Program-made: the position numbers and the translations under genes
Shown: in pieces, positions 1 through 11,486 of the stretch
How the letters are laid out: each line of letters begins with the position of its first letter
Numbering within the stretch: position 1 is the first letter of the stretch
Notes under the pieces: generated by a model
Databases searched by the model: none
Seen by the model: only the letters and a program-made list of their open reading frames with translations
Told to the model about the DNA's origin: nothing
Origin: Chloroflexota bacterium
GTDB lineage: Bacteria; Chloroflexota; Anaerolineae; Ardenticatenales; Ardenticatenaceae
DNA: 11,486 nt
Reading direction: 5' to 3'
Assembly (NCBI GenBank): GCA_003520455.1
Contig: DOUV01001087.1
Location: 1 to 11,486, forward strand

Positions 1-615
1 ACCGATCAGCGGCCCTGCGAGCGGCAGGAGCGCCCGCAGGCGAACCATCGGGCTCCCCTCGGTGCGCAGCCCGCGCGCCCGTTGCGCGTCGAGAATCGCG
101 GTGGCACGGGCCTGCATCCGAGGCAGCAGTTGGATCGCTGCGATGACCAGGTAGCTGATCTCACGCGGCAGTCCAACCCTGTTGAGCGCCAGTGCCAGGT
201 CGGTGGGCTGGGTGCTGAGGAGCAGCAGCAGCGTCGCCCCGGTGAGCAAAAAGAGCCGGCCGGCGATCTGCGCCGCGAAGAGCAACCCCTCCAACTTGAG
301 GCCGAAGGGGCCGAGGCGCCAGAGCACCTGCTCGGCGCCCGGAAAAAAGAATCCCTGAACCAGGACCAACGAGAGAAAGATCGGCGCCAGAATGAAGACC
401 AGCCGCCGGGTCCAGAGCCGGAGCGTCTCTGCGCCGTCGAGCGCGACGAGACCGGCAACCCCCAGCCCGAGCAGTGATGCCAGTAGCGGAACGCCCCGAA
501 CCACCAGGAGGTTAGCAAAGCCCAGCATGAACGCTGCCACCGTCAACGCCAGCTTGGTCAGAGGATGCCAGCGGTGCAGCAAACCATCGCCGGGCAGATA
601 GAGGCCGGTCTCCAT
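1..615 (-). CDS. ecfT: ECF transporter transmembrane component EcfT (partial, cut by window edge)
   Basis: This is the scaffold subunit of an energy-coupling factor (ECF) vitamin importer: it sits in the membrane and links a substrate-binding S component to two ABC ATPases. The frame is open for 205 residues and runs off the window at base 1, so the C-terminus is missing. It begins METGLYLPGDGLLHRWHPLT, the usual EcfT/CbiQ opening, and has hydrophobic stretches near residues 21-60, 71-91 and 110-135. The STQPTDLALAL segment (134-144) is typical. The ARG coupling motif that contacts the ATPases is visible at 180-182 in AQRARGLR; the second expected XRX motif would lie past the edge. ATG at 615 is the only start before an in-frame stop at 627-625; its ribosome site is poor. 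It starts 46 bases after the S component ends, consistent with one operon. Family assignment is firm; which compound it moves depends on the S component. Confidence 0.9.
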   Translation of the reverse strand, partial: METGLYLPGDGLLHRWHPLTKLALTVAAFMLGFANLLVVRGVPLLASLLGLGVAGLVALDGAETLRLWTRRLVFILAPIFLSLVLVQGFFFPGAEQVLWRLGPFGLKLEGLLFAAQIAGRLFLLTGATLLLLLSTQPTDLALALNRVGLPREISYLVIAAIQLLPRMQARATAILDAQRARGLRTEGSPMVRLRALLPLAGPLIG

Positions 616-661
616 GTCACAGGATCACGTTCAGGCGCCTGGTCCGCGACACTCGGTCCGC

Positions 662-1267
662 TCACCCCACCAGTGGCCGGCGCCGGGTGATGTAGCGCTC
701 GCCGAGTGGAAAGCGCGTGAGCAACCGGCGGGAGAGGCCCTTGATGATCAGCCAGACGATCAGGTAGGTGACAATCTTATCGAGCGGGTCGGAGACGGTT
801 CCTTGCAGGAAGTTCGCAGTGATGATGCTCCCGGTAAAGTTCTGGAAAATGGCGACGAGCGCATCGGTGCCGGCCCCAGTGACGCCGCCGAAGACGTAGG
901 CCGCGATTGGCGCACTGATCGCGGCGCTGATGAGCCCGGTGAGCAACCCGACAAGCGCCGCCTGATACCAGCGCTTCAGCCAGCCGGCGCGGCTCGCCAG
1001 TCCGGCAATCAGTCCGATCACGAATGCGACCGGCGCGAACCAGATGATCCCGGAGTTGGGAAAGATCACCTGCCAGATGATGTTGGAGAGCAGTCCCGTG
1101 AGCGCGCCCGCCAGTGGGCCGGCCAGGGAACCGACCAGGACGGTGCCGATAGAATCCAGGTAGAACGGCAGCTTGAGGACATTCTGCACGAGCTGGCCAA
1201 GCACAATATTGATGACGATCGCGAGCGGCATCAATGCCAGGGTTACCGTGTTGAATCGACCATTCAT
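662..1267 (-). CDS. ECF transporter S component, candidate queuine/queuosine-precursor importer
   Basis: A 201-residue, very hydrophobic protein with about six membrane segments (roughly 6-30, 38-60, 74-92, 102-128, 135-152, 162-178) and a basic tail, matching the size and layout of ECF substrate-binding subunits. The stretch with LDSIGTVLVGSLAGPLAG (37-54) followed by a TGLLSN turn is characteristic of these S components. The start at ATG 1267 is fixed by AGGAGG four bases upstream; the same frame is open further upstream but lacks that support. It is followed by ecfT and preceded by tgt and the Qng1 gene, so I infer a substrate related to queuine, in the manner of the predicted queuosine-precursor S components QueT and QrtT. 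I cannot confirm membership of either family from the sequence; riboflavin, thiamine-precursor or other S specificities remain possible. Confidence refers to the ECF S-component assignment, not the substrate. Confidence 0.8.
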   Translation of the reverse strand: MNGRFNTVTLALMPLAIVINIVLGQLVQNVLKLPFYLDSIGTVLVGSLAGPLAGALTGLLSNIIWQVIFPNSGIIWFAPVAFVIGLIAGLASRAGWLKRWYQAALVGLLTGLISAAISAPIAAYVFGGVTGAGTDALVAIFQNFTGSIITANFLQGTVSDPLDKIVTYLIVWLIIKGLSRRLLTRFPLGERYITRRRPLVG

Positions 1268-1309
1268 GGTGCCTCCTGATAAGGGTCGAGTCGAAGAGAG
1301 TGTAGCTCG

Positions 1310-1338
1310 ATTATAACCGATGCCCGACGGAGGGCGAA
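1310..1338 (-). promoter_or_regulatory. Possible promoter ahead of the ECF S component
   Basis: The minus strand has a perfect TATAAT at 1315-1310, 42 bases before the S-component start. Seventeen bases upstream lies TTCGCC (1338-1333), a poor -35 box. It is the only good -10 hexamer in the 237-base gap after tgt, so the transporter genes may have their own start in addition to read-through from tgt. Confidence 0.4.
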
Positions 1339-1357
1339 AGCCGGGGAACAAGTGAGC

Positions 1358-1372
1358 CGCCGGTAACCGGCG
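1358..1372. other. 15-base palindrome CGCCGGTAACCGGCG
   Basis: Perfect 7-base arms around one central base, in the gap between tgt and the ECF S component, just upstream of the possible promoter. It could be an operator, or part of the folded leader described in the findings. It has no T tract on either side, so it is not a convincing terminator. Confidence 0.35.
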
Positions 1373-1504
1373 CGTGTAATGCGGGCCTCGCACACCCACT
1401 GACGAGGGCGCTGCCGACAATTACCTGACGGATGTTCTAGATAGGGGTCGCATACCACGTGAGGATGCTTGTTGTCCCGGGTCAATCCGGCTGGCGGAGC
1501 GGCC

Positions 1505-2797
1505 TTACGCTTCTGTCGCTGCCGCCCGGGCTGCCGCGGCCGGTTCGAGCCACGCCGCCTTCAACGCACTGAAACGCCCCTCACGCAGCGCTGCTCGGAT
1601 CTCGCGCATCAGATCGGCCATGAACTGCAGGTTGTGGATGGTGGCGAGCGTGTAGGCCAGCAACTCCTCGGCGCGGAACAGATGGTGCAGGTAGGCGCGG
1701 GAGAAGCTCTGGCAGGTATAGCACCCGCAGTACTCCACGACGGGTCGCTCGTCGTACTTGAAGCGCGCGTTGCGGATGTTGAGGCGGAACTTCGGGAGTG
1801 TCTGGCCGTCGAGGGTACGCGCCAGCAGCGCGGCGTTGCGTGCGTTACGCGTCGGCGCCACACAATCGAAGGTGTCCACTCCCCGCGCGACCACCTCGAA
1901 GATGTCTGGGATCTCGCCGATGCCGAGGAGGTGGCGCGGCCGGTCGTCGGGCAGATGGGGTATGATCCATTCGAGGATCTGGTGCATGTCAGCCTTGGTG
2001 GTGCCGAGGTTGCCACCGATGGCGATCCCGTCGAAGGGGAGGTTGGCTACGAACTCGGCCGATTTGAGGCGCAGATCCTCGTGAGCACCGCCTTGGACGA
2101 TGCCGTAGAGTGCCTGGGCGCCGCCGTAGCGGGGCTCGCTGTTCTGGAAGTAGGCCAGCGAGCGCCGCGCCCAGCGGTGGGTGCGCTCGAGCGCCTCGGC
2201 CTCGTAGGACTTCGGGTGCAACGGCGAGGTACACTCGTCGAACGCCAGGATCATGTCGGCGCCAAGTTGCCGCTGAATTTCGATGCTCTTCTCAGCGCTG
2301 AACTCATGCAGCGAGCCATCGATGTGGCTCTTGAAGGTCACGCCCTCCTCCCGGATTGTGACGAGGGGCACCTGAGCCTGTTCGCCGCCGCGCCGGCGCG
2401 CGCTGCCCTCCGCCTCAACCTGGAGGCCGCCGGCCTCACCCGGGAAGATGTTGGAGATCTTGCCGACGCCGTGCTCGATCCCCGCCCCGAGGCTGAAGAC
2501 CTGGAACCCACCCGAGTCGGTCAGAATTGGCCGGTCCCACTGCATGAAGCGGTGGAGCCCGCCCAGCCTGGCAACCACACCGGCACCGGGGCGCAGATAG
2601 AGATGGTAGGTGTTGGCAAAGATCACCTGAATCCCCGCCGCCCGCAATTGGTCGGGCGTGACCGCCTTGACGGTGGCCTGGGTGCCGACGGCCACAAACG
2701 CGGGTGTCTCGATAATACCATGGGGCGTCTGGTAGCGGGCCACGCGGGCCGCACCGTCGCGATGGGTGATGTCGAATGCGAAGCCAGGTTGATTCAT
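1505..2797 (-). CDS. tgt: tRNA-guanine transglycosylase
   Basis: Tgt exchanges guanine at wobble position 34 of GUN-anticodon tRNAs for preQ1 or, in some organisms, queuine. Residue numbers count from an upstream in-frame ATG at 2836 (443 residues). I prefer ATG 2797 (430 residues, beginning MNQPGFAFDITHRDG) because family members start there; the upstream ATG has AAGGAG with no spacing. Visible residues are D107 in TDSGGFQVFSL, D200 in AFDEC, Q248 in GIVQGG, the presumed nucleophile D324 in DTFDCVAPTRNARN, and zinc ligands C370, C372, C375 and H401. Two oddities: the segment between VFSL (113-116) and EEGVTF (163-168) is about 46 residues, far longer than in enterobacterial enzymes, and the substrate-pocket loop reads IGGNLGTTK (273-281) where bacterial enzymes usually have GGL-x-VGE. 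Neighbours are a Qng1 gene upstream and ECF transporter genes downstream. Function is certain; the base it accepts is not. Confidence 0.96.
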   Translation of the reverse strand: MNQPGFAFDITHRDGAARVARYQTPHGIIETPAFVAVGTQATVKAVTPDQLRAAGIQVIFANTYHLYLRPGAGVVARLGGLHRFMQWDRPILTDSGGFQVFSLGAGIEHGVGKISNIFPGEAGGLQVEAEGSARRRGGEQAQVPLVTIREEGVTFKSHIDGSLHEFSAEKSIEIQRQLGADMILAFDECTSPLHPKSYEAEALERTHRWARRSLAYFQNSEPRYGGAQALYGIVQGGAHEDLRLKSAEFVANLPFDGIAIGGNLGTTKADMHQILEWIIPHLPDDRPRHLLGIGEIPDIFEVVARGVDTFDCVAPTRNARNAALLARTLDGQTLPKFRLNIRNARFKYDERPVVEYCGCYTCQSFSRAYLHHLFRAEELLAYTLATIHNLQFMADLMREIRAALREGRFSALKAAWLEPAAAARAAATEA

Positions 2798-2973
2798 CTG
2801 GACCGTCCGTTGTCCCTTGTCTCTTTCAGAGACCATCTCCTTGTCCGAACGTTACCACGAAACGACTGAAGCCTGAACCGTGATGACGCGAAGAGCAGGG
2901 GGATTTTCGAGTTCCGCACCCGCCAAAGGACGTCGATGCCACTCGGCCGCTGCGCTCGTTGGCTGCTTTGTGG

Positions 2974-3906
2974 TTAGTAAAAGATCGTCAGCGTCCGGTG
3001 ATGCGGTTTGAGCTCGCGCTGGCGCGCCTCGCCCTCCTGCCAGAGGAGCCAATCGAGCGTCAGGCTGGTCAGTGGGTGCCCCCGCCCCTCGAGGTGCTCG
3101 CGCAGCAGTTCCACCGCCTGGACCGTCGCCGCCCGAAGTTCAACCTCGAAGTCGCTCCCCGCTGGAATCAGACGACCGGTATCGACGGCTGCAGCCAGAC
3201 GCGGACCGTAGCGGAGAACGCGACGCTCGCGCAGGAGTTGGGGCACACGGTAGTCGGCAAACATGGTCAGGTCGCCGATATCGTCGAAGCTCCCCCACAA
3301 TTCGCCGGCGAAGCTCCCCCACAGGTCGCCAACGAAAATCTGGGCACGCTTGTAGAAGAAGATTTGCTTCCCCTCGTAAATAGCGTGGTCGCGAAAACCG
3401 GGGAACTCGGCCGCAACCAGCGCCACCAGCGCGGCCGCCGACCCGTGGGCGGCTTCGACCAATGCGGCGGCCTGGCCACCCCATCGCTCGTCGAGTACTG
3501 CCCCCGCCTCGCGCAGCAGGCGCACCCGCTCGTCCAGGAGTGGCAACGCGCCCCCCAGCCGGCCGGTCAGCTCCGCTCCCGTCAGGCGGCTCAACCTGTC
3601 GGCGTCGAGCCAGCCGGGATCCTGGTCGGTCGCCCGTTTGAGGGCCAGTGCCAGGCGCTGGTAGTCCCACTCGGGTGCCGGCCAGAAACAAAAGTTTAAT
3701 GTATCGAGTACCAGCAAGTACTGCACCGTGAGAGGGCCACCGTCCCGGAAGTGATGCACGTCATCCCACCCGGCGGGCCGGCGCCTGTGGTCGGCCAGCT
3801 CGCGGGCCACACGCTCGACAGCCAACGGGTCGATGTGAACGTGCCGCGCCAGGCGCACGACCGCGCCCGTCGTAGCGCGGACGGCCGTCAAAGGATTGAT
3901 GGGCAC
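2974..3906 (-). CDS. Queuosine 5'-phosphate N-glycosylase/hydrolase (Qng1, DUF2419 family)
   Basis: Qng1 cleaves queuosine 5'-phosphate to free the base queuine for re-use; the family is known mainly from eukaryotes (human QNG1/C9orf64), with some bacterial members. The 310-residue protein carries the recognisable blocks in order: LDTLNFCFWP (67-76), EFPGFRD (167-173), FYKRAQIFVGDLW (184-196), DLTMFADYRVPQ (212-223), LDWLLW (284-289) and a C-terminal HHRTLTIFY (302-310). Length matches the human protein (about 340). A TTG at 3924 would add six residues, but GTG 3906 has GGAGGC seven bases upstream, which decides the start. Residues 193-208 are a tandem duplication (GDLWGSFA then GELWGSFD). 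The next gene is tgt, 137 or more bases downstream; the upstream lipoprotein gene ends 54 bases before. Family assignment is strong; the reaction is known from the family, and cytosolic location is inferred from the lack of signal or membrane segments. Confidence 0.93.
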   Translation of the reverse strand: MPINPLTAVRATTGAVVRLARHVHIDPLAVERVARELADHRRRPAGWDDVHHFRDGGPLTVQYLLVLDTLNFCFWPAPEWDYQRLALALKRATDQDPGWLDADRLSRLTGAELTGRLGGALPLLDERVRLLREAGAVLDERWGGQAAALVEAAHGSAAALVALVAAEFPGFRDHAIYEGKQIFFYKRAQIFVGDLWGSFAGELWGSFDDIGDLTMFADYRVPQLLRERRVLRYGPRLAAAVDTGRLIPAGSDFEVELRAATVQAVELLREHLEGRGHPLTSLTLDWLLWQEGEARQRELKPHHRTLTIFY

Positions 3907-3912
3907 TTTCTC

Positions 3913-3918
3913 GCCTCC
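3913..3918 (-). promoter_or_regulatory. Ribosome binding site of the Qng1 gene
   Basis: GGAGGC on the minus strand, followed by six bases and GTG at 3906-3904. It overlaps the codons just after the alternative TTG start at 3924, and so argues for the GTG start. Confidence 0.7.
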
Positions 3919-3960
3919 AGCCAACGTTTGAACGTCCGAACGGTTGAATCGTTCACCCCT

Positions 3961-5340
3961 TCAGGGTCCCCACCATCCTACTTTGTAGAGTACCCCACCG
4001 CTGCGACCATCGGCCCGCCCGAAGTCAGCGACCCAGAGAGCCCCGTCGCGCGGGTCCACCAGAACGTCCAGCGGGTGGGCGAAGCCGGTGGCGAAGGGTT
4101 GCACGGTCCAATCGCCGGGATAGACGACCACGACCTGCTGGCCAGCGGGTTTGTCGGCAAAGGCCGAGCCCCACTGGGCGATGAAGATCGCGCCCTGATA
4201 GGCCGCCGGGAAGCGCCGGTCGGTGTAGACGGTTAACCCATCCGAAGAGCTGTGGCTCGCCAGGGTCACCACGGGCGCGAGTGTGCCCTCACAGGCGCCG
4301 GGCACACTCGCCTGCCCGACTCCGAAGCAGCCTGGCCAACCGTAGTCGCCCCCCTGCTCGATACGGTTCAGCTCATCGGGCTGGCCCTCGGGCACGTCGC
4401 CGCCGTTGTCGGTCGCCCAGAGTTGGCCCGCGGCGTCGAATGCCAGACCGTAGGGGTTCCGTAGACCGCTGGCATAGAGCTCCAGGTCCGAGCCATCGGC
4501 ATTGAGGCGCAGAATCCCCGCTTGCAACTGGGGTCGCTGGCCGCTCTCGCCCATGTCGTCCACCGAACCCGTCGCGACGTAGAGCTTCCCATCGGGGCCA
4601 AACTCGACGTCGTCTGTCGAGTGGCGGCCCACCGACAACCCGTCGAGTACCTTATCACGGCCCTCGAACTGACCGTCGCCGTCGGCATCCACCAGACGGT
4701 CCACTCCCCCGAGGCGGCTGACGTACAGCCCGTGGGTGGCGGGCTCGAAGGCCAGCCCAAGCGGGGTTACCAGACCGGTCGCAACCGTCACCGGCCGCTC
4801 CGCGCTCTGCGCGTCGCCTCCGAAGCTCATGATCGCCCCGTTGAGCGTCGCGACATAGAGCCTGCCGTCGGGACCCCACGCCAGAGCCGTCGGTGGGTCC
4901 GGGACCTCGCCCCAGCGCCAGGCGTGAAAGCCAGGCGGAACGGTAATCTCAGACGCGACGCCCGGCAGGGATCCTTGAAGCGTCGGCGTGGTCGCAGGGA
5001 GGTGGGCCGTTGGGGTGGCAACGAGGGCGGGGCTGGTGGCTGTCGCGGTCGCCGGAGCGGCCGTCCCCGTTGCAGTCGGAACTGTGGCCGTGGCCGTCGG
5101 ACTGGCGACCGGCGTAGCCGTCGCTGTGAGGGCGTCATGCCCGGACACCGCCGGCCTAGCGGACGAGAGCTGATCCACCCGCGTCGGTGGAGTGGTGACT
5201 GTGGCGAGCGGCGGAGTGGTGGCGGTCGGTGTCACTGTGGGTGCAGCGCCGGGGTGGCAGGCGCCGAGCCCGAGGCCAAGCAACATGGCTGGCAGCAGCC
5301 ACCGAACCGAACGGGGGAAGGAAACGCCGAGTCTGATCAT
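3961..5340 (-). CDS. Glucose/sorbosone dehydrogenase-like beta-propeller lipoprotein
   Basis: A 459-residue exported protein. The N-terminus has basic residues, a hydrophobic core and lipobox LGAC with C28, so it should be lipidated on the outer face of the membrane. Residues 29-125 are a Thr/Pro/Ala-rich, low-complexity stalk. The rest is a six-bladed propeller of the soluble PQQ sugar-dehydrogenase type: PPTALAWGPDGRLYVAT (149-165), RHSTDDVEFGPDGKLYVATGS (239-259), GLRNPYGLAFDAAGQLWATDNG (292-313) and GGDYGWPGC (330-338). A DADGDGQFEG loop (218-227) looks able to bind calcium. H240 and R294-N295 fit the usual catalytic and cofactor positions, but PQQ use cannot be proven from sequence and the sugar is unknown. 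The ATG start overlaps the stop of the small membrane-protein gene as ATGA, suggesting translational coupling; it has no good ribosome site of its own. Confidence 0.88.
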   Translation of the reverse strand: MIRLGVSFPRSVRWLLPAMLLGLGLGACHPGAAPTVTPTATTPPLATVTTPPTRVDQLSSARPAVSGHDALTATATPVASPTATATVPTATGTAAPATATATSPALVATPTAHLPATTPTLQGSLPGVASEITVPPGFHAWRWGEVPDPPTALAWGPDGRLYVATLNGAIMSFGGDAQSAERPVTVATGLVTPLGLAFEPATHGLYVSRLGGVDRLVDADGDGQFEGRDKVLDGLSVGRHSTDDVEFGPDGKLYVATGSVDDMGESGQRPQLQAGILRLNADGSDLELYASGLRNPYGLAFDAAGQLWATDNGGDVPEGQPDELNRIEQGGDYGWPGCFGVGQASVPGACEGTLAPVVTLASHSSSDGLTVYTDRRFPAAYQGAIFIAQWGSAFADKPAGQQVVVVYPGDWTVQPFATGFAHPLDVLVDPRDGALWVADFGRADGRSGGVLYKVGWWGP

Positions 5341-5456
5341 TTCTGCTGCTGTCCAGGTCCCGGTGAAGAGTCAGGCTTTCCGGCCCCTAATGTGATCCCA
5401 ATCAACACCGTGCCGAGAACTGCCAGGCCAAACCACAACACGAGCCCGCCCACCAC
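5337..5456 (-). CDS. Small single-helix membrane protein, 39 residues, unknown function
   Basis: A short frame beginning GTG GTG at 5456, preceded at a short spacing by AAGGTGA, a good match to the anti-Shine-Dalgarno complement. The product has one hydrophobic helix (about residues 3-25, VGGLVLWFGLAVLGTVLIG onward) and a polar tail rich in Pro, Gly and Gln ending QQQK. Its stop TGA overlaps the ATG of the propeller lipoprotein gene in a four-base ATGA junction, a common sign of co-translation. The frame is open upstream to a TGA near 5533, so a longer product from GTG 5507 is possible, but that start lacks a ribosome site. I do not recognise the family. Support comes from the ribosome site, the coherent membrane helix and the overlap; it could still be a chance frame. 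Confidence 0.55.
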   Translation of the reverse strand: MVGGLVLWFGLAVLGTVLIGITLGAGKPDSSPGPGQQQK

Positions 5457-5515
5457 CTGGTCACCTTCACTGTGGAGAGCCCCTCGTACACGGGAACCAA
5501 CCCTCACTACGGCAA

Positions 5516-5550
5516 CGTGGGGCCGGACGCTTCAGCGCCTCGGCCCCACG
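5516..5550 (-). terminator. Strong hairpin downstream of icd, probable transcription terminator
   Basis: Ten perfect GC-rich base pairs (CGTGGGGCCG with CGGCCCCACG), a single bulged A, a further five pairs including one G-U, and a UGAA tetraloop. It begins about 40 bases after the icd stop. No run of Ts follows on the minus strand, so it may stop transcription inefficiently or act as an mRNA 3' stabiliser. Confidence 0.55.
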
Positions 5551-5590
5551 CGAATGTGATGATTGTCGACTCGCCGCGACCGGCCGGCAG

Positions 5591-6847
5591 CTACATGCGG
5601 TCCGCCGCGGCTTGAGCGAAGGCGCTGGATTTGACCTCCCTGGCGCCCTCCATCTGCCGAGCCAAATCGTAGGTGACGATCTTGTCACTGATCGCCGCGG
5701 AAACCCCTCTGTTGACCAACTCGGCCGCCTCGTCCCAGCCAAGGTGCTCCAGCATCATCGCGCCCGAGAGGATCAGGGCGGTCGGATTCACTTTGTCCTG
5801 GCCGGCGTATTTCGGCGCAGTCCCGTGGACCGCCTCGAAAACAGCAACGGTGTCCCCCATGTTGGCGCCGTGGGCGATGCCCAGCCCGCCGACCTGCGCG
5901 GCCGCTGCGTCGGAGAGGTAGTCGCCGTTGAGGTTGGGCAGCGCCAGAACGGAGTACTCATCCGTGCGAGTGAGCAGCTGCTGCAGCATGTTGTCGGCAA
6001 TGCGGTCCTTGACTACGACCTTGCCGTTGCGCTTGCCGTTGTACGGCGCCTGCCAGAGTTGGTCCTCGGTGATGGTTTCGTCGGCGAACTCCTCGCACGC
6101 CAGTTCGTAGCCCCAATCTCGGAAGGCGCCCTCCGTAAACTTCATGATATTGCCCTTGTGAATCAGCGTGACGCTCTCCTGGCCTCGGCGGATAGCATAC
6201 TCGATCGCCTTGCGGATCAGGCGCTTCGACTTGCGCTCGCTGATAGGCTTGATCCCGACGCCGATCGACGCAGCATCCTGGTCCTCGATGGCCTTGACAC
6301 CCATCTCCTCTTTCAGGAAGCGGACGACCCTCTCCGCTTCGGCAGTCCCCGCCTTCCACTCGATCCCGGCATAGACGTCCTCGGTCGCCTCGCGGAAAAG
6401 AATCATGTGCATCTTCTCAGGATGCTTGACAGGGCTGGGCAGACCGGGAATATAGTGTACCGGGCGAACATTGGCGTAGAGGTCGAGGTTCTGGCGAATG
6501 GCCACGTTCAGCGAACGGATCCCGCCACCGATTGGGGTCGTCAGGGGGCCTTTGATCCCGACGTGGTAGTAGGTGAACGCATCGAGGGTCTCGCGTGGTA
6601 ACCACTCGTTGAAACCCTCCAGCGCTCGCTCACCCGCGAAGACCTCAACCCATGCGATTTTGCGCTCGCCCTTGTAGGCCTTGGCGACGGCGGCGGCGAT
6701 CACGTGGAGGGTGGCGGGCGTCACGTCGACGCCGATACCATCACCCATGATGAAGGGGATGATGGGATAGTCGGGTACGACAAGGGTGGCACCATCATAG
6801 GTGATACGCTGGCCCTCACGAGGCGGAGTGAAGGTAGTAAAGTTCAC
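5591..6847 (-). CDS. icd: NADP-dependent isocitrate dehydrogenase
   Basis: Oxidatively decarboxylates isocitrate to 2-oxoglutarate in the citric acid cycle, making NADPH in the cytosol. The 418-residue protein aligns end to end with the E. coli enzyme (416). Substrate residues are all present: S112 and N114 in [14 protein letters not shown]118, R128, R152, Y159, K231, and metal-binding D285, D309 and D313. NADP rather than NAD use is indicated by K346-Y347 in [10 protein letters not shown]353, Y393 and R397. S112 corresponds to the serine that E. coli phosphorylates, but no kinase gene is visible here. Translation starts at GTG 6847, six bases after an AGAGGAG ribosome site. It has 171 bases of non-coding DNA upstream that contain a hairpin sequence resembling one near the glycosyltransferase, and a strong hairpin downstream, so it is probably its own transcription unit. 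Confidence 0.97.
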
Positions 6848-6910
6848 AGATTGCTCCTCTTTGGATCTTGAATTTCAGATCGCTCTTGTTCGGATCGACT
6901 GTATGAGGGA

Positions 6911-6966
6911 GGCGCGGACAGTGCCCGCGCCCGCCCAGCACACCGTATTCCAATGTGAGCGTTTCA
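6911..6966. repeat. Intergenic hairpin element, copy A (upstream of icd)
   Basis: GGCGCGG (6911-6917) pairs with CCGCGCC (6925-6931) around a loop ACAGTGC, followed on the plus strand by the block CACCGTATTCCAATGTGAGCG (6941-6961). The first 14 bases of that block recur on the minus strand at 11053-11066 and the last 13 recur at 11133-11145, both in the large hairpin upstream of the glycosyltransferase. Function unknown; it lies 64-120 bases upstream of the icd start. Confidence 0.5.
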
Positions 6967-7018
6967 GCGTGCTGATTGCCGCTCAGTCCAATAGCAGAGA
7001 TGGAGCCGGCAGCGGAAA

Positions 7019-7978
7019 TCAAACCAGGGCGGGGGCCTCGGCGTCCGTGCCGCACTCTATGACCTCAGCGGCTTCCGGTGCGAGGATTCCTTCGGCAACC
7101 AGAACGTGCTTGAGGCTCACGATCGCCACTTCGAGCATGCTCAGGTCAGGCTCATTGGTGGTGAGCTTTTGAAGCATGAGGCTGGGTGTGATCAGAGCAC
7201 GTACACTCGGGTTGGCATAGTGCCTGGCGCTCCAGCGAATAAATTCGTAGCTGATCGCCGCAACGACCGGGATGAGCAGAATACGGCTCGCCACCATCAG
7301 GATGAAGTTGGGACGACCCAGGAGGCTGAAGACAAAGATGCTGACCACCATTACGACCAGCAAGAATCCGGTGCCGCAGCGCGGGTGGAGCGTCGAAAAG
7401 CGGCGAACGCTCTCGGGCGTCAACTCGGCCCCGGCTTCGTAGGCGTTGATGGTCTTGTGTTCGGCCCCATGGTAGCTAAACACCCGCTGAATCTCGCCCA
7501 TCCGCCGGATCGCCACGAGGTAGCCCAGGAAAATGGCCAGGCGCACCACGCCTTCGGTGATATTGGCAAGCAGATGGGAGGGAATCCAGCTCTCGATCAG
7601 GCGCGAGATAAACAGGGGCAGGATGAAGAAGAGACCGATCCCGAAGGCCAAGGAGACGGCGACGGTCCCCCAGGCCACTGGACCGGCAAAACTGGCCTGC
7701 TCACCACTGGCATCCTTCTCATCCCGGATCGCCACGTCGGCGGACCACATCAGGGCGCGCATCCCAAGCCCGAGGGCATCCCACAACAAGGCCAGCCCGC
7801 GGACAAAGGGCCACTTCCCGACGCGGCTGGTGTAGATCGCTGCCGTGAGGGGCTCCTGTTGGACCACAATCTGGCCATCTGGGGCACGAACAGCGACGGC
7901 CACCTGCTGAGCTCCCCGCATCATCACGCCCTCGATGACCGCCTGGCCGCCGTAGTTGAATTCCTGTTTTGTACTCAT
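7019..7978 (-). CDS. DUF1385 family membrane protein (YqhQ-like)
   Basis: A 319-residue protein of the DUF1385 family, whose role has not been settled; conserved His, Glu and Cys residues suggest a metal site, and it is often called a predicted metal-dependent enzyme. The three hallmark blocks are GGQAVIEGVMMRG (10-22), YHGAEHKTINAYEAG (169-183) and TLHPRCGTGFLL (196-207), plus the common LQKLTTNEPD near the end (269-278). Hydrophobic segments lie at about 101-124, 144-157, 204-220 and 226-245, so it sits in the cytoplasmic membrane. The length is ordinary for the family. The ATG at 7978 has AAGGGGAG just upstream with tight spacing. It follows tdk after 117 bases; tdk/rpmE-type neighbourhoods are a frequent home for this family, but prfA, often the next gene there, is absent and icd comes next. 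Confidence 0.93.
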   Translation of the reverse strand: MSTKQEFNYGGQAVIEGVMMRGAQQVAVAVRAPDGQIVVQQEPLTAAIYTSRVGKWPFVRGLALLWDALGLGMRALMWSADVAIRDEKDASGEQASFAGPVAWGTVAVSLAFGIGLFFILPLFISRLIESWIPSHLLANITEGVVRLAIFLGYLVAIRRMGEIQRVFSYHGAEHKTINAYEAGAELTPESVRRFSTLHPRCGTGFLLVVMVVSIFVFSLLGRPNFILMVASRILLIPVVAAISYEFIRWSARHYANPSVRALITPSLMLQKLTTNEPDLSMLEVAIVSLKHVLVAEGILAPEAAEVIECGTDAEAPALV

Positions 7979-8095
7979 GCTCCCCTTGCCACTACTCCCA
8001 AGAACGTCAGCCTCCGCTCGACCGCTGGTGATGAGCGCGGTCGCACGGCCGCACGCGCTACGGGATTGTACCTGAGGCCGCTCCGACCGGCAAGG

Positions 8096-8686
8096 TCAGC
8101 GTTGGGGCGCGCCGGGCACCTGGTGGCAGTGACGGCAGCGAGCCTCGTAGCACTCATTGGCACCGACAAGAATCACCGGGTCGTTGTAGTGGGCCGGTTC
8201 GTCGTTGATCAGGCGTTGGGTGCGGCTGGCAGGCCCGCCGCATTTCACGCAAATCGCGCTGAGTTTGTCCACCATCTCAGCCTGCGTCATCAGGAGGGGC
8301 ATAGGGCCGAAAGGCTCGCCCCGGAAATCCATATCGAGGCCAGCGGCAATGATTCGGACACCCTGGTCGGCCATCTCATTCAAAACGTCGGCGATCTCCC
8401 AGTCGAAGAACTGAACCTCATCTACCGCCAGGACCGTGGTATCGGGCCGGAGTTGCCGAACCAGGTCGCGGGCACTCTCGACCGGCAGCGCATCGAGCTG
8501 AACGCCGCTATGTGAAGCCACCGCCATCTCGTGGTAGCGGGTATCGATGTGGGGCTTGAACACCTGGACGTGTTGACCTGCGATCTCGGCTCGCCGGACA
8601 CGGCGAATTAACTCTTCAGTCTTGCCACTGAACATGCTGCCGACGATCAGTTCGATCCAGCCACCCTGGTAGTAGCGGTAGGGCAT
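8096..8686 (-). CDS. tdk: Thymidine kinase
   Basis: Phosphorylates thymidine with ATP to dTMP in the nucleotide-salvage pathway; a cytosolic type II (TK1-like) enzyme. The 196-residue length is normal. Visible features are the P-loop GSMFSGKT (16-23), the VDEVQFF block with catalytic E90, the structural zinc cysteines C146/C149 (CVKC) and C184/C187 (CRHC), and the lasso region [17 protein letters not shown] that encloses the substrate. The frame could begin at a TTG at 8701, but ATG 8686 has GGGAGG seven bases upstream, and the TTG would overlap that ribosome site, so I choose 8686. The gene lies just after the terminator of the ribosomal unit; no clear promoter is visible in the 50-base gap, so expression may rely on read-through. 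DUF1385 follows. Confidence 0.97.
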
Positions 8687-8693
8687 GGGCACG

Positions 8694-8699
8694 CCTCCC
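8694..8699 (-). promoter_or_regulatory. Ribosome binding site of tdk
   Basis: GGGAGG on the minus strand, seven bases before ATG 8686-8684. It decides between this start and an in-frame TTG at 8701 that sits on top of it. Confidence 0.75.
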
Positions 8700-8737
8700 A
8701 ATTTCGAAGGTCTCAGCCTTTATGGTTAAGTTAACGC

Positions 8738-8768
8738 AAAAACGGCAGGGCCCTTCCAGGCCCTGCCG
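8738..8768 (-). terminator. Intrinsic terminator after rpmE
   Basis: A perfect 10-base-pair stem (CGGCAGGGCC with GGCCCTGCCG, 8768-8743), six-base loop, and five Ts at 8742-8738 on the minus strand. It stands 39 bases after the rpmE stop and closes the rplU-rpmA-rpmE unit. Confidence 0.92.
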
Positions 8769-8806
8769 TCGTGGACAATTCCAGGACGCCTGGCACCGCA
8801 GCGAAC

Positions 8807-9094
8807 TTAGCTCTCAGCCTCGTCACCGTCGCCCACCGTCTCGATGATGGTGCGACCACGGCGCTTCTTGCCCTTGCTCCCACGTGCATCAACGCTGGCC
8901 TCCAGCCGCCGCATGAAGCGCTCGACCTGGCCGGCACTGTCAACGATGCGCTGCTCGCCAGTATAGAACGGATGGCAATTGCTGCACAGGTCAGTGCGGA
9001 TCTCTTTCACGGTCGAGCCGGTGCGGAAGGTATTTCCGCACGAGCAGACCACCAGAGCGTCTGGATAGTAGGTGGGGTGAATATTCTTTTTCAC
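8807..9094 (-). CDS. rpmE: 50S ribosomal protein L31 (bL31), zinc-binding form with long C-terminal tail
   Basis: A large-subunit ribosomal protein that helps bridge the two subunits. It opens [20 protein letters not shown] and holds the four zinc cysteines C17, C19, C37 and C40, the last two in [11 protein letters not shown], so it is the zinc-containing rather than the zinc-free type. At 95 residues it is about 25 longer than the E. coli protein: after the conserved VERFMRRL there is a basic run (KGKKRRGR, 74-81) and an acidic end (GDGDEAES). The start is GTG at 9094, whose bases overlap the rpmA stop as GTGA, which points to translational coupling. It is the last gene before the terminator at 8768-8738. 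Confidence 0.97.
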
Positions 9095-9360
9095 CGGACC
9101 ATCTCCTCGTTGGGATAAACGCTCACCGCCTTCTTGCCACCCCGAATCGGGTGGAACTTCACCCAGCCATCAACCGTGCTGAAGAGTGTGAAATCGTTGC
9201 CCAAGCCAACATTCTCACCGGGGTGGATCTTCGTACCGCGCTGGCGAACCAGAATCGAACCGGCCGACACAAACTGACCATCGAAGCGCTTGACCCCGAG
9301 GCGTTGCGCATTGCTGTCGCGTCCGTTCCTGCTAGAACCGCCACCCTTCTTATGAGCCAT
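9091..9360 (-). CDS. rpmA: 50S ribosomal protein L27 (bL27)
   Basis: Large-subunit protein whose N-terminal tail reaches the peptidyl transferase centre. The 89-residue product begins [20 protein letters not shown] and contains the conserved [15 protein letters not shown] (34-48) and GNDFTLF (54-60). There is no cleavable N-terminal extension of the Firmicutes type, and correspondingly no prp protease gene between rplU and rpmA. The frame is open further upstream, but ATG 9360 is fixed by the family N-terminus and by AAAGGAG eight bases ahead. It lies 109 bases after rplU and overlaps rpmE by four bases. Confidence 0.98.
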
Positions 9361-9469
9361 CTTCTCAACTCCTTTGGGCCCAAAGCCCGACGCCAAACAA
9401 TTCTAGAGGCATGCAAGTCCACTGCGCGCTTGAGGCCGAGCCTGGCAGGCGCGCAACGCGCTTCGCACG

Positions 9470-9784
9470 CTACGCCAGGACGATCGACTCAATGCGGAGG
9501 CGAGTGATGGGCTGGCGGTGCCCCTTCTTGACGCGATAGCGATTCTTATTGTGGTAGCGGAAGATAATCTTCTTTTTATCTTTCGCCTGGGCCAACACCT
9601 TGGCCCTGACCACAGCGCCATCGACCAACGGCTGCCCGATGATCAGATTATCGTCGTTGCTGACAAGCAACACCCGGTCCAACTCGACGGTTTCCCCTGC
9701 ATTGATGTCCAGGCGCTCTACCTCGAGAGTCTCGCCTTCCTGCACTTTATATTGCTTGCCGCCGGTCTCGATGACTGCGTACAC
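9470..9784 (-). CDS. rplU: 50S ribosomal protein L21 (bL21)
   Basis: Large-subunit ribosomal protein that binds 23S rRNA. The 104-residue product begins MYAVIETGGKQYKVQEGETL and ends with the rRNA-binding KKIIFRYHNKNRYRVKKGHRQ block (part of 71-91) and a C-terminal LRIESIVLA. The open frame reaches much further upstream, but GTG 9784 matches the family start and has GGGAGG seven bases before it. It is first in the rplU-rpmA-rpmE unit, preceded by a consensus promoter and a leader of about 100 bases with three hairpins. Confidence 0.98.
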   Translation of the reverse strand: MYAVIETGGKQYKVQEGETLEVERLDINAGETVELDRVLLVSNDDNLIIGQPLVDGAVVRAKVLAQAKDKKKIIFRYHNKNRYRVKKGHRQPITRLRIESIVLA

Positions 9785-9822
9785 CGCTCTGCCTCCCACG
9801 CGCCCTGACTTGACACAGAACA

Positions 9823-9882
9823 CGGGCCGCACTGGCCCGCGTGGATGAGTCCACAAAGAATGTGGCGCGGTCCCGCGCCACA
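9823..9882 (-). promoter_or_regulatory. Structured 5' leader of the rplU transcript
   Basis: Between the promoter and the rplU ribosome site the minus strand can form three successive hairpins: TGTGGCGCG with CGCGCCACA (9882-9861, nine pairs, four-base loop) lying almost at the predicted transcript 5' end; GTGGA with TCCAC (9854-9841); and CGGGCC with GGCCCG (9839-9823). This is compatible with autogenous control by a ribosomal protein or with mRNA stabilisation; I cannot match it to a named leader motif. Confidence 0.5.
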
Positions 9883-9889
9883 GTTTGAT

Positions 9890-9918
9890 ATTATAAGGTT
9901 GAGAGGAGCACGTGTCAA
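9890..9918 (-). promoter_or_regulatory. Consensus sigma-70 type promoter of rplU-rpmA-rpmE
   Basis: A perfect TTGACA (9918-9913) and a perfect TATAAT (9895-9890) separated by exactly 17 bases. The transcript would begin near 9883, giving a leader of about 100 bases. It lies about 47 bases downstream of the glycosyltransferase stop. Confidence 0.93.
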
Positions 9919-9965
9919 ATTGGAAACCGCCGTAACGGCTCCGTTCCCGGTCTACCGACTTCCCA

Positions 9966-11000
9966 TCACGCCTCCCGCGGGGTAGGGCGCTCAGGCTCAT
10001 AGTCCTCACGATTCACGTGCAGGAACGCGCCGTCCGCAGGCGCCCGGACCGGGACTTGGGGCGCCGGGCGGTCCAGCCCCCACGCGTCCGCGACGATGTA
10101 GAGCGGTCGATGTTTGACCTCCTCGTAGATTCGGCCGATGTACTCGCCCAAGATCCCCAGCGAGAGCAACTGCACACCACCGAGGAAGAGTACCGCAATC
10201 AGGGTCGTCGCCTGGCCCAGGAACGCCTGCATCCCCGACAAACGTAGAATCACGACGATGATGATGAACACCAGACTGATGGTTGCCAGGGTGAAACCGG
10301 CGTAAGTGGCCAGTTGCAGGGGAAAGTAACTGAAACTCGTGATGGCGTTCAGCGCGAGCTTCAGCATCTTCTGAAACGGATAGTGGGTCTCGCCTGCAAA
10401 ACGGGCCTGCCGCACGTAGGGCACACCCGTCTGGCGAAAACCGACCCACGCAGCCATCCCGCGCATGAAGCGGTGTAACTCCCGCATTCCCCGCAGGGTT
10501 TCCACCACCTGGCGATCCATGAGACGGAAGTCGCCCGCGTCGAGTGGGATGTCTACGTTGGTGATACGCCGGATGAGGCGATAGAAGGTCCTCGCTGTCC
10601 ACTCCTTGAACCAGGTCTCCCCGATGCGCTTCTCGCGGATCGCGTAGACAACTTCGTACCCCTTTTTCCACCGCGCGATCAACTCCGGAATCACCTCGGG
10701 TGGATCCTGAAGATCGGCATCAATGATGATCACCGCGTCACCCTGGGCATAGTCGAGCCCCGCGGTGATCGCGATCTGGTGACCAAAATTGCGCGAGAAG
10801 TTGATGACTTTGAACCGTGGGTCCTGCCGGTGGACAGCATGCAGCAGTGCCAATGAATTGTCGCCGCTCCCATCATTCACGAAGACGACCTCAGCGCTCC
10901 CGTCGAGTGAATCCATAACCCCACTGAGCCGACGGGCGAGCTCAAGGATCGTTCCTTCCTCATTAAAGATTGGAACGATGATTGAGTACATTGCAGGCAT
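9966..11000 (-). CDS. Family 2 glycosyltransferase, GtrB/DPM1-like, membrane-anchored
   Basis: Probably transfers a sugar from a nucleotide sugar to a polyprenyl phosphate carrier at the cytoplasmic face of the membrane, for later use in glycan or protein decoration. The 344-residue protein has the GT-A fold landmarks: [11 protein letters not shown] (6-16), [10 protein letters not shown] (40-49), the metal-binding DAD at 94-96 in [11 protein letters not shown], and [10 protein letters not shown] (154-163). Two membrane helices follow at about 229-253 and 264-288, then [19 protein letters not shown] (285-303), the typical end of GtrB-type enzymes, and a Pro-rich tail. Possible starts are TTG 11012, ATG 11000 and ATG 10991; I chose 11000, though the GGGATGG site ahead is weak. 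No flippase or sugar-synthesis gene lies nearby, so the acceptor and sugar are unknown. Confidence 0.92.
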
Positions 11001-11486
11001 ATTCCATCCCAAGGCAGAAAGCCAGCAGCCGAATGATGTTCGTTCCGCTTGTATTGGAATACGGTGCCCGGAACCGGGGCGGAGGTGCGACGCACTTCAG
11101 ACAGTGCGTCGCACCTGATCCGTGCACGCGACTCCAATGTGAGCGGTTCGTTCTATTGTAGCACACCTCCCCTGCAACCATCGAACGGTTAATCCGTCCC
11201 GCACCGCCAACGACCATGGTGGCAACGCTCGGTACCGGCCCCACACTGTTTTCCAGAGGGGATGACTGTGGGCGCGGCATTGCTGGGACAGTCCCCCGAA
11301 GTGTCCGGGCGGCGCTCGGCGCGAACGAAAGCCGTGCGCAACCCGCCCCAGGGCCATGCCAGCCGCAATGTGGTTGTCAGTGGCGAAACAGTGCCAGGGC
11401 GGGTTTTGGAGGATCCAGGCTGGCGACGACCCAGCCCCGATCGGATCGCGCCGGCCGGGCGACGTCTCGGGCAAAACCCGCCCCGA
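11001..11486. other. Non-coding region upstream of the glycosyltransferase, up to the window edge
   Basis: About 485 bases without a gene I can support. It contains the large hairpin element at 11041-11150, a possible -10 sequence TACAAT with an upstream TG (minus strand near 11158-11153) without a good -35, and inverted copies of GGGCGGGTTTTG at 11397-11408 and 11472-11483. A plus-strand frame from ATG 11262 stays open to the edge (75 codons) behind AGAGGGG, but its product looks like no protein family. Confidence 0.5.
11041..11150. repeat. Intergenic hairpin element, copy B (upstream of the glycosyltransferase)
   Basis: A perfect 14-base inverted repeat, AGGTGCGACGCACT (11083-11096) and AGTGCGTCGCACCT (11103-11116), with a six-base loop. 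The symmetry continues imperfectly outward: GTATTGGAATACGGTG at 11051-11066 on the left faces ACTCCAATGTGAGCGG at 11131-11146 on the right. Both outer blocks share 13-14 identical bases with the element upstream of icd. The size and symmetry suit a miniature inverted-repeat or REP-like sequence, but no transposase or target duplication is visible. Confidence 0.6.

Follow-up and report, generated by a model that had tools for sequence, protein, structure and literature searches.

We analyzed an 11,486-nucleotide stretch of DNA from a Chloroflexota bacterium (Ardenticatenaceae; contig DOUV01001087.1, positions 1 to 11,486; hereafter the window) in which four minus-strand genes encode Qng1, the tRNA-guanine transglycosylase Tgt, and the substrate-binding (S) and transmembrane coupling (EcfT, or T) components of an energy-coupling factor (ECF) transporter. 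The locus is probably a route for scavenging queuosine (Q): the ECF transporter would import queuosine, Qng1 would free the base queuine, and Tgt would insert queuine directly into tRNA. We observed the gene content and order, a recurrent pairing of Qng1 with Tgt, a Tgt with an altered base-pocket loop and an insertion, an absence of Q pathway genes from 30 of 50 genomes with Qng1, and the frequent location of S near N-glycosidases. A first-pass annotation, made from the letters of the window, had listed Qng1, Tgt, ECF S and EcfT as consecutive same-strand genes, and all four are present; their matches to family models are strong for Qng1 and Tgt and sufficient for the two transporter components.

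Pairing of Qng1 with Tgt

Qng1 of the window matched PF10343 over profile positions 2-285 of 285 (E = 2.3e-81, 274 bits, cut-off 25), and its nearest solved structures are 7uk3 and 7u07 (queuosine salvage protein/DUF2419, E = 3e-74); it is a predicted member of the queuosine 5′-phosphate N-glycosylase family. A 23-row Qng1 alignment was used to scan genomes of bacteria and archaea; of the 241 relatives it detected, the best 80 were retained. The comparison of neighborhoods of Qng1 homologs that the first-pass annotation had proposed found Tgt beside Qng1 in 47 of these 80 loci, always on the same strand (46 downstream, 1 upstream; median gap 76 bases, maximum 904), and the pairing spans Chloroflexota, Bipolaricaulota, and delta-proteobacterial lineages, as judged by record titles. 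When neighboring proteins were clustered, Tgt was the commonest partner, lying within 3.5 kb in 41 of the 74 loci with a clustered Qng1, and the next families reached 10. The association of Qng1 with Tgt is more than chance. The full order Qng1-Tgt-S-T was seen again in four loci (L001, L002, L006, and L122), and in L014 a set of S, T, and two ATPase genes (S-T-A-A) lies upstream of Qng1. No transporter common to the Qng1-Tgt loci of other lineages was prominent in the neighbor clustering, for which part of the neighbors were scanned against a family library. A plasmid search with Qng1 returned just partial Variovorax matches in 4 records.

Two further observations concern Qng1. Eleven genomes (G028, G031, G033, G034, G036, G037, and G040-G044; Ktedonobacteria, a Sphaerobacter, and a Chloroflexia bacterium by their titles) carry Qng1 apart from Tgt, have QueA, QueC, QueF, and QueG, and have the normal Tgt loop described below in 11/11 cases. 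Fifteen eukaryotic Qng1 proteins (plant, algal, oomycete, and amoeba, including Dictyostelium; P0041-P0119) were nested in the Ardenticatenia-type branch that holds the window protein; this branch with its eukaryotic rows made up 28 of the 57 tree rows (support 100/100), the other sampled bacterial Qng1s being separate. The window protein was the query of the search that supplied the eukaryotic rows, which include neither animals nor fungi, so this placement is only a lead to the origin of eukaryotic Qng1.

A Qng1-linked Tgt subclass

The window Tgt scored 468 bits against the TIGR00430 equivalog model (cut-off 306.75). Residues D107, D324, C370, C372, C375, and H401 are invariant in 29 aligned Tgts and likewise in the 25 rows of a further alignment; by their roles in Zymomonas mobilis, we take the two Asp to be the catalytic pair and the other four to be the Cys3His zinc site. 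The 50 best structure matches listed for the window Tgt are Z. mobilis-type bacterial Tgt entries, so that this search does not separate the bacterial from the eukaryotic type.

Two features are shared by the window Tgt and all 46 full-length Tgts adjoining Qng1 (the partial Tgts of L025, L030, L041, and L064 being excluded from these rows). The one is an insertion, 33-60 residues long, that follows GGFQVFSL or a similar string and carries the motif GVGKI..IFP in most rows; the low-confidence part of the AlphaFold2 model of the window Tgt lies mainly in it (115-153). The other is a pocket loop reading GG[SAND][LV]G, which has one residue fewer than GGLSVGE. The same insertion and short loop were found in 9/9 Tgts located elsewhere in Qng1 genomes (G003, G004, G010, G012, G013, G015, G017, G038, and G045), that of G003 (GGNLGKTK) being closest to the window loop (GGNLGTTK). 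The long loop with Val or Leu is kept in 38/38 normal-type Tgts from QueA genomes (14 + 20 + 4 by sample); these were chosen as unbroken PF01702 matches, so the number is no random draw, and one of the 14 genomes (G050) has just a piece of QueA. In the Tgt tree, the Qng1-linked Tgts and that of the window form one group of 47 rows (support 87/95, an unstarred fork), and the window groups with L001, L002, L006, and L122 (support 100/98).

At the level of sequence, the insertion and the shortened loop define a new, Qng1-linked subclass of Tgt; we found no account of a GGxLG subclass in the openly accessible literature searched, most subscription papers lying outside it. Five genomes (G029, G047, G048, G049, and G177) have both a normal unbroken Tgt and a Qng1-linked one, so the two kinds can coexist in one cell; in G201, the Qng1-linked Tgt is accompanied by another Tgt reading GGEAIGYSK. 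Further Tgt paralogs, with loops GGWPLDK, GGESIGFSK, and GGEAIGYSK, were seen in L144 and L145 (Ktedonobacteria-type), L151 (G177), and L153 (G201).

Queuosine pathway genes in relatives and in the phylum

The first-pass annotation had pointed to the absence of preQ1 synthesis genes from the window, which is uninformative by itself in 11 kb, and had suggested a genome-wide search for queA, queG/queH, and queC-F. We searched for QueA, QueC, QueH, QueG, and QueF in the genomes of 50 of the 80 Qng1 loci, i.e., in relatives rather than in the organism of the window. The expectation was borne out for 30 of the 50 genomes, which have no full-length QueA and no QueC, QueF, QueG, or QueH, but not for the other 20, which keep one or more; for single genomes in these counts, for which completeness figures are not given, assembly gaps are possible. 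G002, with the same four genes as the window, is among the 30, and neither it nor G001 (locus L001, also with the same four genes) yielded QueA, QueC, QueF, or QueH. G001 falls outside the 30 because of its QueG-like gene.

These counts depend on the following thresholds. The lenient 22-bit cut-off for QueC is reached in 35/50 genomes, and just the 16 with at least 176 bits were counted. The QueF cut-off is reached in 18/70, and G176 (27.9 bits) and G182 (28.1 bits) were not counted, these weak matches presumably representing another family, GTP cyclohydrolase. QueG was counted above 200 bits only. QueA matches of 152-275 bits were treated as a paralog, which is present in 7 of the 30 genomes (G006, G013, G014, G016, G017, G025, and G045); G003 (67 bits, at a contig end), itself one of the 30, and G050 (44 bits) have short pieces of QueA, which did not count as full-length. 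A lower-scoring QueA-like family (~250-275 bits) recurs in Chloroflexota, also where no other Q genes were found (G013, G014, G016, G017, and G025), and is present as second copies in Ktedonobacteria-type genomes.

We also sampled 201 Chloroflexota genomes, centered on G001, which was chosen for having Qng1, and including G041 and G044 of the same origin. The numbers of genomes with a match were 164 for Tgt, 135 for QueA, 52 for Qng1, and 44 for S. Before co-occurrence was counted, weak Qng1 matches (26-33 bits; G052, G055, G061, and G216) were removed, and seven genomes were taken as paralog-only for QueA (G081 has a piece at a contig end, possibly of a true QueA, and G217 and G238 have QueG). 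Among the 48 genomes with a clear Qng1, S is present in 8/14 without QueA vs. 1/34 with QueA (P = 6e-5); among the Tgt-holding genomes, in 19/39 vs. 23/125, respectively.

The Tgt loop varied with QueA as well. We hand-picked 40 Chloroflexota Tgts, taking 9/11 genomes that have only Tgt and S, G195, 10/14 that have Tgt only, 17/22 that have QueA and S besides Tgt, and 3 that have QueA besides Tgt. A short loop, or one in which Gly replaces Val, occurs in 16/20 without QueA vs. 0/20 with QueA (Fisher's exact test, P = 1.5e-7, uncorrected for kinship). The 20 QueA-minus Tgts comprise 10 with GGLAGDE, the published queuine type, 6 with GGSLG and 27-residue insertions, and 4 with a normal loop; one of the GGSLG Tgts is from G182, whose assembly is nearly all on one 4.9-Mb contig. 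QueG is above the cut-off in 1 of the 21 QueA-minus genomes with a short or Gly loop (G001).

The ECF transporter

The S protein matched PF12822 (31.5 bits, cut-off 30.7) and has the fold of an S component. Its best NCBIfam model was NF045596 (CD3073 family), which it matched over nearly the full length at 126.7 bits, below the cut-off of 180; 9 other S proteins tested were also under this cut-off. QueT was considered and rejected as an identity for S, Pfam-A giving just PF12822 and NCBIfam (at E = 0.001) just CD3073 and FolT-family models.

We read the neighborhoods of S in 41 of 53 S genomes: 18 adjoin a nucleoside hydrolase, 7 adjoin Qng1, and 1 adjoins Tgt alone. S also adjoins nucleoside hydrolases outside the phylum, in the archaeon Haladaptatus, in Enterococcus raffinosus, and in Lacticaseibacillus. 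Because the S family is so often beside N-glycosidases, import of the nucleoside queuosine is predicted rather than import of queuine. From its sequence and neighbors, S is a predicted nucleoside importer, which is a better guess than queuine, although a nucleoside unrelated to Q is also possible. The first-pass annotation had offered queuine and queuosine alike as substrates; the nucleoside hydrolase neighbors, even in an archaeon, favor the nucleoside and make queuine less likely. It had also described S as a transporter not yet assigned; clustering of PF12822 with bacterial Tgt, Qng1, or QueK is already published, in a survey of transporters near these genes in which PF12822 is prominent (PMC11130926, section 2.2). 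That Qng1 clusters with transporters is therefore known at the Pfam level. In the openly accessible literature searched, outside which most subscription papers lie, we found no account of this S family as nucleoside importers.

An internal repeat, seen as two matches to the middle of the query, enlarges S in L125, L126, L127, L150, L160-L166, and L170, most of them beside a nucleoside hydrolase. L156 is a short contig with S and T alone. S was present in 18 plasmid records, of which 7 were examined (the Streptomyces one is without annotation); in the Paracoccus and Salmonella records, the S-T-A-A set comes after a gene for a PPC-domain DNA-binding protein (L211 4513-7731, L212 4535-7587).

Proposed route and alternatives

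In the proposed route, the ECF transporter would take up queuosine from the surroundings, S carrying queuosine rather than queuine or another nucleoside. Qng1 prefers the 5′-phosphate of queuosine, and imported queuosine would therefore be phosphorylated, by a kinase not recognized in the locus, or else be cut slowly in unphosphorylated form. Qng1 would then release queuine, which Tgt, if it accepts queuine, would exchange for guanine 34 in tRNAs with GUN anticodons, QueA and QueG not being needed. The ATPases of the transporter would be encoded beyond the window edge, as in relatives. The sequence of import, release, and direct insertion of queuine had been put forward in the first-pass annotation as eukaryote-like. 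It survives in part: the Qng1-Tgt pairing and the 30/50 genomes without Q genes agree with it, and the likeness holds for the route and for Qng1, but not for Tgt, which is a bacterial TIGR00430 protein of its own subclass, nor was S a QueT.

Several observations weigh against this route. Qng1 also occurs in full-pathway genomes with a single normal Tgt (e.g., G031, G034, G040, and G043). The window loop GGNLG (GGSLG in most relatives) is not an exact match to the published queuine motif GG[LS][AS]G, the window Tgt lacks the Glu of GGLSVGE, and whether it has Leu or Gly at the position of Val233 depends on the alignment. In Z. mobilis Tgt, replacing Val233 makes room for queuine, yet the Val233Gly and Cys158Val changes gave no queuine-inserting enzyme (PMC3660597); since Val233Gly opens the pocket but is insufficient for insertion, insertion by way of a wholly reshaped loop, such as the one seen here, is plausible. 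Four of the 20 QueA-minus Tgts have a normal loop (G171, G178, G188, and G231), although QueG is present in two of these genomes, whose QueA may have escaped detection. No N-glycosidase or Tgt stands alongside S in 15/41 loci (4 of them at contig ends or on a short contig), nor any nucleosidase beside S-T-A-A in the Paracoccus and Salmonella plasmid records. S need not be specific to Q, as it also lies beside a nucleoside hydrolase in an archaeon and in genomes that have QueA and a normal Tgt. Finally, 237 bases separate tgt from S in the window, so that S and T may form a separate transcript.

These last two points favor the idea that S and T are an importer of nucleosides in general, or of another micronutrient, that merely adjoins a Qng1-Tgt recycling pair. 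In Chloroflexota with QueA, relatives of S adjoin nucleoside hydrolases and PfkB kinases, which points the same way, as does the S most similar to that of the window in the 201-genome sample (G214, 63%), which is distant from Qng1 and Tgt. We regard a general importer as improbable, however, given the four loci that repeat the Qng1-Tgt-S-T order, the gap of only ~30 bases between Tgt and S in two of them (L001 and L002), and the excess of S in Tgt-holding genomes without QueA. It is likewise unlikely, if slightly easier to entertain, that the ECF transporter brings in free queuine for Tgt while Qng1 just recycles queuosine 5′-phosphate released as the cell turns over its own tRNA. PreQ1, queuine, and Q are all carried by one ECF S protein of C. 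difficile (PMC11130926), S is absent beside most Qng1-Tgt loci, so that Qng1 must be useful apart from this transporter, and 11 sampled genomes have S and Tgt with neither Qng1 nor QueA, the loop being short or Gly in 11/11; but a nucleosidase (nucleoside hydrolase or Qng1) is beside S in 25/41 loci, and would be superfluous for import of the base. We give little credence to a preQ1 route, in which Tgt would insert scavenged preQ1, QueA and QueG would be encoded elsewhere in the genome, and Qng1 would serve a separate recycling step. The window Tgt retains Cys158, as in preQ1 enzymes, G001 still has a QueG-like gene (230-231 bits, above the cut-off of 200), G038 has QueA, QueC, QueF, and QueG with a short-loop Tgt as the sole Tgt found, all of which also count against direct insertion, and an Acidobacteriota transporter adjoining qng1 carried preQ0/preQ1 (PMC11130926). 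Nevertheless, QueA, QueC, QueF, and QueH were not found in G001 or G002, and the pocket loop of the window is unlike those of the 38 normal-type Tgts of QueA genomes.

Beyond the scavenging of queuosine by this locus, we venture a broader proposal, whose chances we put somewhat below even. The Qng1-linked Tgts may be a third bacterial kind, with a GGxLG loop lacking the Val and Glu of GGLSVGE and with a flexible insertion, that evolved for queuine and accompanies Qng1 in Chloroflexota, Bipolaricaulota, and delta-proteobacterial lineages; in some cells it would stand beside a normal Tgt, giving both de novo and salvage entry of Q, and in the window lineage a queuosine-specific branch within an ECF family of nucleoside importers would supply it.

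Layout of the window

The coordinates are collected in Table 1. On the minus strand, the order is Qng1, Tgt, S, and EcfT, with intergenic gaps of 137, 237, and 46 bases. ATPase genes come after T in the loci of relatives; in the window, base 1 cuts EcfT, and ATPase genes are therefore out of view. Upstream of qng1, family scans identified a GSDH-like protein, isocitrate dehydrogenase, a DUF1385 protein, thymidine kinase, and a glycosyltransferase, and rpmE, rpmA, and rplU were assigned by eye between the last two; no connection with queuosine was seen for these genes within the window. The thymidine kinase gene, ~4 kb upstream of Qng1 here, adjoins Qng1 in an Ardenticatena record (L004 9013-9594), possibly by chance. 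A riboswitch at the locus was considered and rejected, Rfam scans giving no family at threshold in the whole window and no match at E = 1 across 560-4100. A promoter and terminator scan of 500-4200 gave no sites, and a tRNA gene scan of the window found none.

Table 1. Features of the predicted queuosine locus in the window
Feature	Position	Strand	Remarks
qng1 (DUF2419, queuosine 5′-phosphate N-glycosylase family)	2974..3906	-	GTG start 3906, alternative TTG 3924; 100% cluster P0002, 310 amino acids
tgt, Qng1-linked subclass	1505..2836	-	ATG 2836, alternative ATG 2797
Tgt insertion, residues 117-162, carrying subclass motif GVGKI..IFP	2351..2488	-	
Tgt shortened base-pocket loop GGNLG, residues 274-278	2003..2017	-	Normal Tgts of QueA genomes: GGLSVGE or similar
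ECF S component (substrate-binding), CD3073-like, predicted nucleoside importer	662..1267	-	
ecfT (transmembrane coupling component), 3′ end lost at window edge	1..615	-	PF02361, E = 3.2e-19

Comparison with known systems

Queuine is usually seen as made by free-living bacteria and scavenged by eukaryotes or host-bound bacteria. If the proposed route is true, environmental Chloroflexota and other lineages scavenge queuosine and would compete for a micronutrient that eukaryotes need too. The Qng1-linked Tgt would then be a sequence mark that may distinguish the genomes of bacteria using queuine directly from those of preQ1 users, and nucleosides would be a testable substrate class for an ECF S family whose curated model says only "putative".

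Among bacteria, C. trachomatis salvages queuine directly and C. difficile indirectly (PMC11570991, PMC11477304), and Qng1 and QueK are queuine-freeing enzymes (PMC11130926). The locus resembles the QPTR/YhhQ and Tgt system of Chlamydia trachomatis in its altered Tgt pocket and presumably direct insertion of the base, with no QueA, QueG, or QueH there (PMC11570991); it differs in having an ECF transporter instead of QPTR, in having Qng1, and in a loop reading GGxLG rather than GG[LS][AS]G. With QueK-QrtT-QueL of Clostridioides difficile it shares an ECF S component beside an enzyme freeing queuine from queuosine (PMC11477304), but the window has Qng1 in place of QueK, T (with ATPases in relatives) beside S, and Tgt in the locus; neither a radical SAM queuine lyase nor a QueK-type nucleoside hydrolase was among the 9 window proteins scanned, genes past the window end being out of view. 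The CD3073 family (NF045596) is the closest curated S family, yet the window S falls below its 180-bit cut-off. Eukaryotic salvage by Qng1 and QTRT1/QTRT2 has in common with the locus the Qng1 family and a predicted direct insertion of queuine, whereas the window has a bacterial-type Tgt (TIGR00430), ECF import, and no QTRT2-like second subunit seen in the locus.

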